DNA of 36,035 nucleotides, from positions 1 through 36,035 of the IMG/VR virus record IMGVR_UViG_3300028800_000214, one strand, 5' to 3'. The stretch comes from a virus. The notes beneath the pieces are model-generated. The model was not told where the DNA came from and ran no database searches. It was given only the letters and a program-made list of their open reading frames with translations. Positions 2,860 to 33,633 of this stretch are shown here, in pieces; the stretch's first letter is position 1, and each line of letters opens with the position of its first letter. Position numbers and translations under genes: made by a program.

Positions 2860-3245
2860 CCAAAGAAGAAGAAAAAAAGCCGGTCGTCGTTTTCCGCATG
2901 ACCGACGGGTCCGACCTGATAGGCACTCTCGATCGGATAGTAATGGCTAACGACACCTTCGTCATCGGTAACCCGCTCTCCGTCATCTCTGGCTACAGCC
3001 AGGAGCACGACTCCAAGTATTTCTATTTCGAGCCGGCGTTGCCTCTGTCAGACGACACCGTGATCGTCGTCGACCAGAGCAAGGTCGTCTTCAGGGTTCC
3101 GGTCAGGGCCGACATCGCCAAGGCCTACGAGGACTTCCTGGGACACCAGGACAACGACGGCAAAGCCAAACCGCTGGCTGAAGCCATGCAGGAAACCATC
3201 GAGGAGCTATCAGCTCAGCTCCTCGGAAAGCGCACGATCCACTAG
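2856..3245 (+). CDS. Sm-like (LSm/Hfq-type) phage protein
   Basis: 129 residues, GTG start overlapping uvsW. The sequence VVFRMTDGSDLIGTLDR followed by VIGNPLSVI looks like an Sm1-type beta strand pattern, in which a bent sheet opens with a DG-x-x-x-G turn. A structurally characterised family of Sm-like proteins is known from T4-like cyanophages in the same neighbourhood, and this resembles it. Possible roles are RNA binding or ring formation near late transcription genes. The acidic, helical C-terminal half is not explained. It ends in TAG. Confidence 0.6.
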   Translation: MTKEEEKKPVVVFRMTDGSDLIGTLDRIVMANDTFVIGNPLSVISGYSQEHDSKYFYFEPALPLSDDTVIVVDQSKVVFRVPVRADIAKAYEDFLGHQDNDGKAKPLAEAMQETIEELSAQLLGKRTIH

Positions 3246-23400: not shown

Positions 23401-24114
23401 ATGGCCACGCTACCGTTCACCCTCCAGTACCACGACGAGCTCAACCCAAAGATCTGGGATGGAGACCATCTCCGTCCGGAAGTCAGGGAAAAGCTCAAGC
23501 ACATCGCCCTTACCTGGGCCGAGTCGGCGAATATCCCTCTCGAAGACATCCACGACATCGTCATGACCGGCGGGAACGCCAACTTCAACTACTCCGACCA
23601 CTCGGACATCGATGTCCACCTCGTGGTCGACAAGGAGAAGATGGGCCCGAAGGACCTGATCGACGACTACCTCCACGACAAGAAGGTGGTGTGGGAATTC
23701 AAGCACCCCGACATCAGGGTGAGGGGGTACGGGGTGGAACTCTACGCCCAGGGAGTTGATGAACCATTCCCGACGCAGCAGGGTGTCTACTCGGTTGAGG
23801 ACGACACCTGGCACGTGAGACCCTCGCATGACCCAATCGACTATGGGTCTGACACCGGTCTGAAGAGGAAGGTGGACTACTATTCCCGCAGGATCGGGGA
23901 GCTCGTCAACGAACCTGGAAACGTGAAGGCCTTGAAGAACCTAAAGCTCAGGTTGCAGATCAAACGCGGAGCAGGGCTGAGGGCAGCCGGGGAACGTGCT
24001 ATCCCCAACCTTCTGTACAAAGAATTGAGGAACCGCGGAGTATTGGGCGCGGTTAATTTGTACATCCAGAAAAATAAGGATGCAGAACTTTCCCTTGAAA
24101 GTGTCTCCTTATAA
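23401..24114 (+). CDS. Nucleotidyltransferase-fold protein, 3' end replaced
   Basis: 237 residues. VMTGGNANFNYSDHSDIDVH has the GG/S...DxD motif of the polymerase-beta-like nucleotidyltransferase superfamily; similar proteins in T4-like phages are annotated as nucleotidyltransferases and are often late or virion-associated. There is a late-promoter motif before the ATG. From about 24040 the codons become A+T-rich and the protein ends AELSLESVSL. A second, GC-rich version of that end (AELSLEGVDRRQVR) is found at 24683-24727 after the HNH gene, so the present C-terminus was delivered by the insertion. Confidence 0.75.
   Translation: MATLPFTLQYHDELNPKIWDGDHLRPEVREKLKHIALTWAESANIPLEDIHDIVMTGGNANFNYSDHSDIDVHLVVDKEKMGPKDLIDDYLHDKKVVWEFKHPDIRVRGYGVELYAQGVDEPFPTQQGVYSVEDDTWHVRPSHDPIDYGSDTGLKRKVDYYSRRIGELVNEPGNVKALKNLKLRLQIKRGAGLRAAGERAIPNLLYKELRNRGVLGAVNLYIQKNKDAELSLESVSL
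24082..24105 (+). repeat. Recoded copy of the target gene end (pairs with 24683-24706)
   Basis: These 24 bases encode AELSLESV. Bases 24683-24706 encode AELSLEGV. They agree at 16 of 24 positions and all but the Ser/Gly codon differ only at third positions. The pair brackets the HNH gene and marks the insertion boundaries. Confidence 0.75.
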
Positions 24115-24117
24115 ATA
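24110..24117 (+). promoter_or_regulatory. Late promoter TATAAATA before the HNH gene
   Basis: A perfect T4 late consensus four bases before the HNH start codon, at the junction brought in by the mobile element. The expected RNA start is at about 24123. Confidence 0.65.
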
Positions 24118-24121
24118 AGAG

Positions 24122-24727
24122 ATGCTGCCAGAACCAAAGCATCCAAGGTACCTTGATCGTTACTATTGGTTAATAGAATACTCCAGGAATCATCCTCCAA
24201 CAGGTTATCTGGAACGCCATCACATCCATCCCAGATCGATGGGTGGCTCCAATGATTCTTCGAATATCATAGCACTGACAGCAAGACAACACTTCTTAGC
24301 ACATTGGCTCCTATGGAAAGCTTACAGGAATCGAAAAACTGCGTTCGCATTCAGAATGATGTGTCAGGCTAAGCGTGGATACCAAGAGAGATACTCGAGG
24401 ATCTCCTCTCGTCTATATGAAGCAATCAATTCTGATGTTTCTCACTCAGACGCGACGAAACAGAAGATGTCTCAGTCTGCAAGAGGCAAACCAAAATCTA
24501 ATGAACATCGAAGAAACATCAGTATTGCCAACAGAGGCATAGGAAAGGGGAGAAAGCAAGATCCAGAATGGATAGCTAAGAGAACTGCCCATAGACGAGG
24601 AGAAGTTGCTCCACGGGTTTCATGCGTTCTATGTCATAAAGAGGTCGATGTTAGAAATCTCTCAAGACACCATAAACACGCCGCCGAGCTCTCACTCGAA
24701 GGCGTTGACCGGCGCCAGGTTCGATAG
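24122..24727 (+). CDS. HNH homing endonuclease (with NUMOD3-like motif)
   Basis: 201 residues. The HNH core is LERHHIHPRSMGGSNDSSNI followed by ALTARQHFLAHWLLWKAY. A NUMOD3-like DNA-binding region reads SDATKQKMSQSARGKPKS and a C-terminal zinc finger reads CVLCHKEVDVRNLSRHHKH. Codon use is A+T-rich, unlike all neighbours, as expected of a recently arrived mobile gene. The last 15 residues (AELSLEGVDRRQVR with one Ala before) are the original end of the invaded nucleotidyltransferase gene, read in a new frame relationship and now fused to the nuclease. Confidence 0.9.
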   Translation: MLPEPKHPRYLDRYYWLIEYSRNHPPTGYLERHHIHPRSMGGSNDSSNIIALTARQHFLAHWLLWKAYRNRKTAFAFRMMCQAKRGYQERYSRISSRLYEAINSDVSHSDATKQKMSQSARGKPKSNEHRRNISIANRGIGKGRKQDPEWIAKRTAHRRGEVAPRVSCVLCHKEVDVRNLSRHHKHAAELSLEGVDRRQVR

Positions 24728-24875
24728 GGCTGTAGCTCCTATCGTCTAAAGCTTTTTGCAGGTCCCTCTCTGACTGCGGCAAGCCGTCGTAGTCGAACAT
24801 CTGTTCGGCACTATAGAGGTCGCCGATGTAGATCGTCGAACGAGCGATGGACCAGTCCATCTTGTCGCCGTCCAT
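24651..24875 (-). CDS. Hypothetical protein with 3' end in the HNH insertion
   Basis: 74 residues, ATG at 24875 sharing bases with the upstream TGA. It begins MDGDKMDWSIARSTIYIGDL and contains SERDLQKALDD. The final 25 or so residues are Arg-rich and are encoded antisense to the end of the HNH gene, so the tail is probably new and the native protein ended differently. Last gene of the reverse operon, convergent with the nucleotidyltransferase and HNH genes. Confidence 0.6.
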   Translation of the reverse strand: MDGDKMDWSIARSTIYIGDLYSAEQMFDYDGLPQSERDLQKALDDRSYSPIEPGAGQRLRVRARRRVYGVLRDF

Positions 24876-25345
24876 CACACCTTCTCCTTCCACGACTTCG
24901 GCAACGGCCGTTGACGCAGGCCTTTCTTGTGACCCTCGTCGTCCTTGACGTCCTTGTGTTCCCATCCAACCGGGATACGCTGTCCGGGAGGCAAGCACCA
25001 GAGGTGGTACTTGTTCGAGGTATCGACGAGACGAGATTCGGCTGGGTAGAGCTCGATCGCTTCCACCTCAGGGCCGACGAGTTGGTTCTTGATGTCCTGG
25101 AACTCACGCCAGTCCCTGAAGATGACGTTACCGTCCCTGCGCCTGATGTTCAACTGGGTCCAGCCGGTAGGGTTCCTGCGGACCTCGACCTGGTAGGTTT
25201 CGTTGATCCAGACCTCGACATTCGCCTGATCTTCATCAATCCACTGGATGGCGCCGGCCTCGTCGAGACCGTATTGTTCCATGGTCACCTTGATGAGCTC
25301 ATGAGAGAGCGGCTTGAACGAAGTGGCTTTCTGGAGAGGCTGCAT
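24875..25345 (-). CDS. DUF7694-like phage protein
   Basis: 156 residues. MEQYGLDEAGAIQWIDEDQ and EVWINETYQVEVRR in the first half, and QDIKNQLVGPEVEAIELYPA followed by ESRLVDTSNKYHLW in the second, fit a family found widely in phages and prophages, of unknown function. One base separates it from the upstream gene, and it shares stop and start bases with the downstream one. Confidence 0.7.
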   Translation of the reverse strand: MQPLQKATSFKPLSHELIKVTMEQYGLDEAGAIQWIDEDQANVEVWINETYQVEVRRNPTGWTQLNIRRRDGNVIFRDWREFQDIKNQLVGPEVEAIELYPAESRLVDTSNKYHLWCLPPGQRIPVGWEHKDVKDDEGHKKGLRQRPLPKSWKEKV

Positions 25346-32443: not shown

Positions 32444-32520
32444 GTCCTCGTAGCTCAGTTGGATAGAGTATCGGTTTCCTAAACCGAGTGTCGCAGGTTC
32501 GAATCCTGCCGAGGACGCCA
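32444..32520 (+). tRNA. tRNA-Arg (anticodon CCU)
   Basis: A complete 77-base cloverleaf. Acceptor stem GTCCTCG/CGAGGAC, D-arm, anticodon stem TCGGT/ACCGA around the loop TTCCTAA with anticodon CCT, T-arm GCAGG/CCTGC around TTCGAAT, G discriminator and encoded CCA, then TTTTT. It reads AGG, a codon used very often by the phage genes here. Confidence 0.92.
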
Positions 32521-33349: not shown

Positions 33350-33633
33350 TGGGCATCCAGAACCTGTTGATCATCTTATATTTCCTGCTGAAAGCGGGAA
33401 TCATCGCCCTCGTCAACGCAATGTTGTTCATTGCCCTTGCTTTTGGGGCCGTATACGTCCTGGCTTTCCTGTGCACCCTCGCCTACGGCGTGGTCTTTTT
33501 AGTCGGGTGGGCCTGTGTACAGACCTTCAGGAAAGCATATATATTGGTGGCCGGGTTGGTGTCAACGGTAAACACGTCTGACTCTAAATCGGAAACTACG
33601 GGTTCGAATCCCGTACTCGGCGCCAACAACTAA
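33349..33633 (+). CDS. Membrane protein overlapping a tRNA gene
   Basis: 94 residues (or one more with GTG at 33346). Two to three hydrophobic segments: LLIILYFLLKAGIIALVNAM, then LFIALAFGAVYVLAFLCTLA and YGVVFLVGWACVQTF. From residue 67 on the frame runs through the tRNA at 33550-33625, so the last 28 residues are tRNA-derived. A holin is possible given the topology, but unproven. Confidence 0.55.
   Translation: MGIQNLLIILYFLLKAGIIALVNAMLFIALAFGAVYVLAFLCTLAYGVVFLVGWACVQTFRKAYILVAGLVSTVNTSDSKSETTGSNPVLGANN
33550..33625 (+). tRNA. tRNA with CUA anticodon (amber suppressor)
   Basis: A 76-base cloverleaf. Acceptor GCCGGGT pairs with ACTCGGC, including one G-T pair. D-stem is GTGT/ACAC. The anticodon stem TCTGA/TCGGA encloses the loop CTCTAAA with anticodon CTA at 33584-33586. 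T-arm is ACGGG/CCCGT around TTCGAAT, then G and encoded CCA. CUA reads UAG. The D-loop CAACGGTAA resembles tRNA-Gln, and one base change would restore the Gln CUG anticodon. The amino acid carried is not known. Confidence 0.88.

Follow-up and report, generated by a model that had tools for sequence, protein, structure and literature searches.

A free-standing HNH homing element that very probably replaces the 3′ end of a nucleotidyltransferase gene in a T4-type phage replication block

Two neighboring genes with related ends

The window, by which we mean the whole stretch of DNA analyzed here, is a 36,035-base IMG/VR virus record that includes a T4-type replication block. The genes of this block are those for the sliding clamp, the clamp loader, gp62, regA, a lysozyme, a nucleotidyltransferase (NTase), an HNH protein, the DNA polymerase gp43, UvsX, and a DnaB-like helicase. 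The GC content of the window is about 55%, with a dip at 24.0-25.0 kb. The features that we discuss are collected in Table 1.

Table 1. Genes in the window, and the segments into which we propose to divide the NTase and HNH genes
Feature	Position	Strand	Description or evidence
NTase open reading frame	23401-24114	+	237 aa; ends NLYIQKNKDAELSLESVSL, then stop; last residues AELSLESVSL
HNH open reading frame	24122-24727	+	201 aa; ends RHHKHAAELSLEGVDRRQVR, then stop; final part AELSLEGVDRRQVR
Resident part of the target gene (nucleotidyltransferase-like, phrog_36119)	23401-24052	+	phrog_36119 match, GC3, SDxDxH
Proposed replacement 3′ end of the NTase gene (NLYIQKNKDAELSLESVSL, stop)	24053-24114, left edge uncertain (23990-24070)	+	low GC, conserved LSLE, helix position
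T4-type late-promoter-like motif TATAAATA between the NTase and HNH genes	24110-24117	+	sequence motif
HNH homing endonuclease body (HNH and NUMOD3 motifs)	24122-24678	+	phrog_655, PF01844, PF07460, alignment
Proposed displaced old NTase end (AAELSLEGVDRRQVR, stop), in-frame C-terminus of the HNH protein	24680-24727	+	GC3, codons, motif survey, L126/L440 parallel
Two tRNA genes	32444-32517, 33550-33622

The NTase matches the profile phrog_36119 with an E-value of 2.7e-66, and the SDxDxH motif is invariant among its relatives. Its predicted fold resembles the small nucleotidyltransferases, with a best Z of 7.0 to 2rff, which is a middling value, and its whole-chain Foldseek matches are poor. 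The majority of 22 NTase relatives share a conserved LSL end, after which there is usually an E or K and a short remainder of a few residues.

The HNH protein belongs by its nuclease sequence to the phrog_655 homing endonucleases (E 1e-42). It scores above the cut-off of PF01844, and PF07460 is also matched. Most of the aligned HNH relatives end in a zinc-finger-like C..C...H...CK and a few residues. In the protein of the window the final Cys-Lys is absent and what we take to be the old NTase end is there instead; without the last Cys of the zinc-finger-like end, this protein may be inactive. The motif TATAAATA sits just before the HNH start and has a putative late-promoter role. In the surveyed loci this motif is enriched ahead of homing endonuclease gene (HEG) starts: ATAAATA is present within 40 bases upstream of 57 of 157 HEG starts vs. 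37 of 498 other gene starts.

A sequence-only reading of this DNA had claimed that the NTase gene ends in AELSLESVSL with a GC-poor tail, that a GC-rich copy of this end is fused to the end of the HNH protein some 600 bases on, and that the two copies differ almost only at third codon positions. All of this holds. The copies of the shared stretch start at 24082 and 24683, a spacing of 601 bases. Across the eight codons of AELSLE(S/G)V there are six synonymous differences and one change of residue, and a single codon is the same in both copies. The NTase gene has a GC3 of 0.79 in its body and of 0.45 in its tail; the HNH body is at 0.38, and the second copy at 0.69.

Could the second AELSLE be a chance match, or the natural end of an HNH protein? 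By plain local alignment, the two 25-residue ends reach only a moderate score (one matched by 100 of 200,000 shuffles), and a three-frame survey of repeated coding ends gives P ~0.06 for the window, both of which leave room for that explanation. The alignment score alone is too weak as proof, and the case for the repeat in the window is built on the family motif, the composition, and the codons. Among 5,854 open frames of at least 60 codons, we find ELSLE at 16 residues or fewer from the stop in nine, namely the two of the window and seven ends of NTase relatives, and nowhere else. That is, the window's HNH gene is the only one outside the NTase genes to carry it. Moreover, a GC boundary falls at the same place, HNH relatives have other ends, and the arrangement recurs in the sister elements described below. 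We therefore regard a chance or natural end as highly improbable.

The composition was modeled by a two-boundary likelihood fit to GC in which the repeat is not used. The fit beats a uniform composition by 18.5 log units, and it places a low-GC segment from 24053 to 24676/24678, with 2-unit ranges of 23990-24070 for the left boundary and 24653-24687 for the right one. The left edge is within the NTase gene and the right edge is just before the second copy. Because the low-GC boundaries and both gene ends coincide, the insert appears to consist of a replacement NTase end and the HNH gene; the displaced old end would be the GC-rich copy. The replacement begins about 29 bases upstream of the shared stretch (at about 24053). 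Some 9-10 replaced codons upstream of the shared stretch are without any displaced copy, and for that reason the event in the window was not a clean insertion.

The replacement end preserves the conserved LSLE of the NTase family. In the predicted structure of the NTase, residues 214-230 form the last helix, of which the replacement end covers the second half. By this model the element replaced half of this helix and the tail, and an NTase without the substitute would have been truncated there.

Two other histories would also put related ends on the two sides of an HNH gene. In one, the gene end was first duplicated locally in tandem, and the HNH gene then entered between the copies that now flank it. 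The synonymous differences at six of the eight codons, and the GC3 of 0.45 vs. 0.69, point instead to a divergence under selection, in separate lineages, before the two copies met. In addition, in the sister locus L126 the downstream copy is the native allele and it is the upstream copy that is foreign, so that we consider a tandem duplication very unlikely. The other supposes a group I intron that carries the HNH gene, the second AELSLE (GCCGAGCTC) being the second exon, and HNH genes are indeed frequent in phage introns. However, the NTase frame is complete without splicing, and the HEG-less alleles of the sister locus need no splicing either. Intron families give no match in 23900-24900 at E-values up to 5, although highly divergent introns could escape this search, and at the gathering score there is none in the window or in five sister loci. 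An intron at this position is scarcely conceivable.

Scans with the NTase against viral_contigs and genome_contigs for close relatives of the window's phage have a best match at 46%, and one partial match, while a scan with gp43 also gives 46% as the best among the matches listed. The HNH motif seen here is present near the gene in none of the 26 NTase relatives checked. These scans turned up no phage that is closely related to that of the window and lacks the HNH gene, so that we infer the native NTase end of the window.

Sister elements and alleles without the endonuclease gene

Related HEGs were surveyed for coding ends that are repeated, and this identified other loci in which HEG-less alleles do exist. 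As an example, the target in L126 codes for 73 aa and has the portal gene on one side and a gp67-like gene on the other. This target gene ends in QYAPPAAPAGL, and the HEG behind it ends in YAPPAAPPGL. This type of HEG is present in six contigs, and 75 relatives are HEG-less. In L440, which is a near-allele of L126 without the HEG, the gene ends in QYAPPAAPPGL. The last bases of L440, GTATGCTCCCCCGGCCGCCCCTCCAGGCCTTT, are identical to the end of the HEG in L126, and the sequence downstream is alike in both. The L126 gene itself equals L440 over positions 118-194 and then has nine differences in the last 28 positions, its own end being different from that of L440 mostly by synonymous changes. 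Comparison with HEG-less relatives, which the sequence-only reading had put forward as the way to check its proposal, thus comes out in its favor in this sister element: L440 carries exactly the displaced end of L126, and not the replacement. The end duplication in L126 is clean.

Where does a replacement end come from? That of L126 is within the variation of the HEG-less alleles (the nearest, L460, differs at 4 of 24 bases), and therefore a foreign allele fits better than a recoding. The sequence-only reading had described the NTase gene as restored with a recoded end; that a replacement end was supplied stands, but it is probably a natural allele of another phage lineage, carried along with the HEG, and not one made for the purpose.

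A small gene with FDPANTDYQAYLKWLAEGNTPLPAD, which defines what we call the KWLxEGN group, is a repeated HEG target. Upstream, L199 and L200 show no relationship (0.35-0.45). Their identity is about 0.9 over the gene tail and the HEG and is lost again at the displaced end, and on both outer sides they are unrelated. Between L203 and L205, it is the first part of the gene that is shared (87%), and the tail and the HEG are not. The ends of the HEG-less relatives (58 different tails) are of the displaced type, and an EEGG end occurs in this group only where there is a HEG. At seven of the eight loci, the HEG-less profile is matched better by the displaced end than by the end that the gene has now. 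Given that tail and HEG travel jointly, and that the HEG-less relatives have the displaced type, the mobile unit is therefore the replacement end plus the HEG. L205 has in addition, at 1059-1223, a second and HEG-less copy of the target gene, ending in AYLRWLEAGNQPLPAEQPE.

The displaced end forms an in-frame C-terminus of the endonuclease in almost every 3′ case (24659-24727 in the window, L126, L170, L198-L201, L203, L205, and L334). The exception is L130, in which the HEG has its own stop and the displaced end is in a separate frame.

For the sister elements, the comparison of allele sequences demonstrates what the native end is, that the displaced end is identical with it, and that replacement end and HEG travel jointly. 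These results bear on one more explanation for the window, which is an accident of co-conversion: a HEG residing behind the NTase gene of another phage would have entered by homologous repair on its left and been joined by chance, on its right, within the recipient's NTase end, as a one-off. The window does have the look of a ragged one-sided event, with a replacement that reaches back beyond the shared stretch and an old end of which a part has no displaced copy. Flank co-conversion is well known for T4 HEGs (excerpts of PMC2988022), and something similar must have happened when any such element first inserted. But the arrangement recurs at several unrelated target genes, the end duplication is clean in L126, and joint movement of replacement end and HEG between phages is seen in the KWLxEGN group. 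We consider a one-off accident unlikely.

Further targets and a proposed mechanism

Similar repeats were found at four more targets, one at a 3′ end and three at 5′ ends. The 3′ case is a virion-structural-type gene (L334). In the 5′ cases, which are gp43 (L274), a tail-sheath-type gene (L026), and a heptose/cytidylyltransferase-like gene (L174), it is the gene start that is repeated on both sides of the HEG. The repeat in L274 agrees at 17 of 17 residues, and 12 of the 17 codons differ. In L174 (about 3118-3165), the restored gene start shifts the frame after MKIVLATGGF; as the sequence reads, the cytidylyltransferase-like gene would be broken, or else this is a sequence error.

In the first HEG set, repeated coding ends are present at 5 of 91 HEG loci besides the window, and such frequencies are lower bounds because the survey is of one HNH family and its test is too weak to flag the window itself. 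A hint of frequency can be taken from this first set only, since the null of the survey is inflated by homologous targets, and the later sets were drawn with the positives as queries. Some survey matches were dropped. In L180 and L338 the repeat is a terminator, a terminator-like stretch CACCTTCGGGTGGTTTTTTTGT present on both sides of the HEG (2507-3265 of L180), which is perhaps a restored terminator. L192, L296, and L146 look like low-complexity matches.

We propose the following sequence of events. The endonuclease would cut the resident NTase end in alleles without the element, and repair would then copy the donor's gene end together with the HNH gene. The replacement end would keep the NTase at full length, and it would escape cutting owing to its different codons. 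The resident end would be pushed downstream to a position directly behind the HNH gene, here in frame, so as to become a new C-terminus of the HNH protein. In later rounds, the displaced end may provide the homology on the right-hand side. Co-conversion on the left side would account for the roughly 9-10 extra codons replaced in the window.

Thus, the segment 24053-24678 is very probably a free-standing HNH homing element, in which the mobile unit is the replacement 3′ NTase end plus the endonuclease gene, swapping ends as it spreads. The claim that an element at the 3′ end of the NTase gene supplied a replacement end, and that the old end became the C-terminus of the HNH protein, agrees with the composition, the conserved family end, and the reading frame. 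Beyond the window, we think it likely that there is a widespread phage HNH class of end-swapping elements, made of a substitute gene end and a HEG, at 3′ or 5′ gene ends, with the displaced end as endonuclease C-terminus in several of the 3′ units, and that this class has arisen apart from the fungal WHO elements and mORFs. Its 3′-end targets would be the NTase gene, the small gene between gp20 and the gp67-like gene, the KWLxEGN gene, and the virion protein gene; its 5′-end targets would be gp43, the tail-sheath-type gene, and the cytidylyltransferase-like gene.

Under this proposal, a homing endonuclease needs neither an intron nor an intein to occupy a gene's coding end, as it brings a substitute end. 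That substitute would make the element immune to itself, and it would be a vehicle for exchanging gene ends between phages. The end swap looks like a general route by which these genes can spread and leave their target intact.

Comparison with known systems

The element e14, at E. coli icd, is an integrative element that restores the 3′ end of its target by a substitute coding end, most of whose differences are synonymous, and it uses an integrase and attachment sites. The window has in common with e14 an insertion at a gene end with a mostly synonymous substitute, but the insert here carries the HNH gene only.

With the Mob-type HNH homing endonucleases of T4-like phages, the window element shares the type of phage, the HNH and NUMOD3 motifs, a zinc-finger-like end, and a free-standing gene between phage genes (excerpts of PMC2988022). 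The T4 HEGs covered there sit between genes or split a gene, as mobE does in Aeh1 nrdA. Those excerpts do not mention a substitute target end or a displaced end for the T4 cases. A phage case of an end swap appears neither in the excerpts of that review, nor in those of a study of phage nuclease genes (PMC10448857) and of a survey of Skunavirus HNH genes (PMC12724721), nor in the titles and abstracts of further open literature, by which its absence is not proven.

The closer parallels are fungal. mORFs have been described for atp6, atp9, cox2, and nad3 of Glomus and for atp6 of Allomyces, and consist of an inserted foreign C-terminal part, an endonuclease ORF, and the native C-terminal part displaced downstream, with the protein conserved and the DNA diverged (excerpts of PMC3630166). 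The window has an inserted C-terminal end, an endonuclease ORF, and a displaced native C-terminal end in this same order. The mORFs, however, are in fungal mitochondrial genes and have other endonuclease families (LAGLIDADG at atp6), while here we have HNH in a T4-like phage replication block.

In the WHO elements at the yeast aldolase gene FBA1, the endonuclease gene is downstream of the target and is itself followed by a leftover fragment of the old 3′ end; cleavage has been demonstrated for WHO6 (excerpts of PMC7282813). The likeness is twofold. The 3′ end of the target is replaced by a divergent end beside the endonuclease gene, as the composition suggests for the window and as HEG-less alleles show for L126 and the KWLxEGN group. 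And the displaced old 3′-end fragment is downstream of the endonuclease gene, both in the window and in L126 when compared with L440. The differences are that WHO elements have an HO/VDE-type endonuclease at a yeast nuclear gene and the elements here have HNH at phage genes, that the displaced end here is often fused in frame to the endonuclease, and that 5′-end versions also exist. These elements offer a phage system in which the WHO/mORF mechanism could be tested. The element in the window works like a WHO element, but it is not one.
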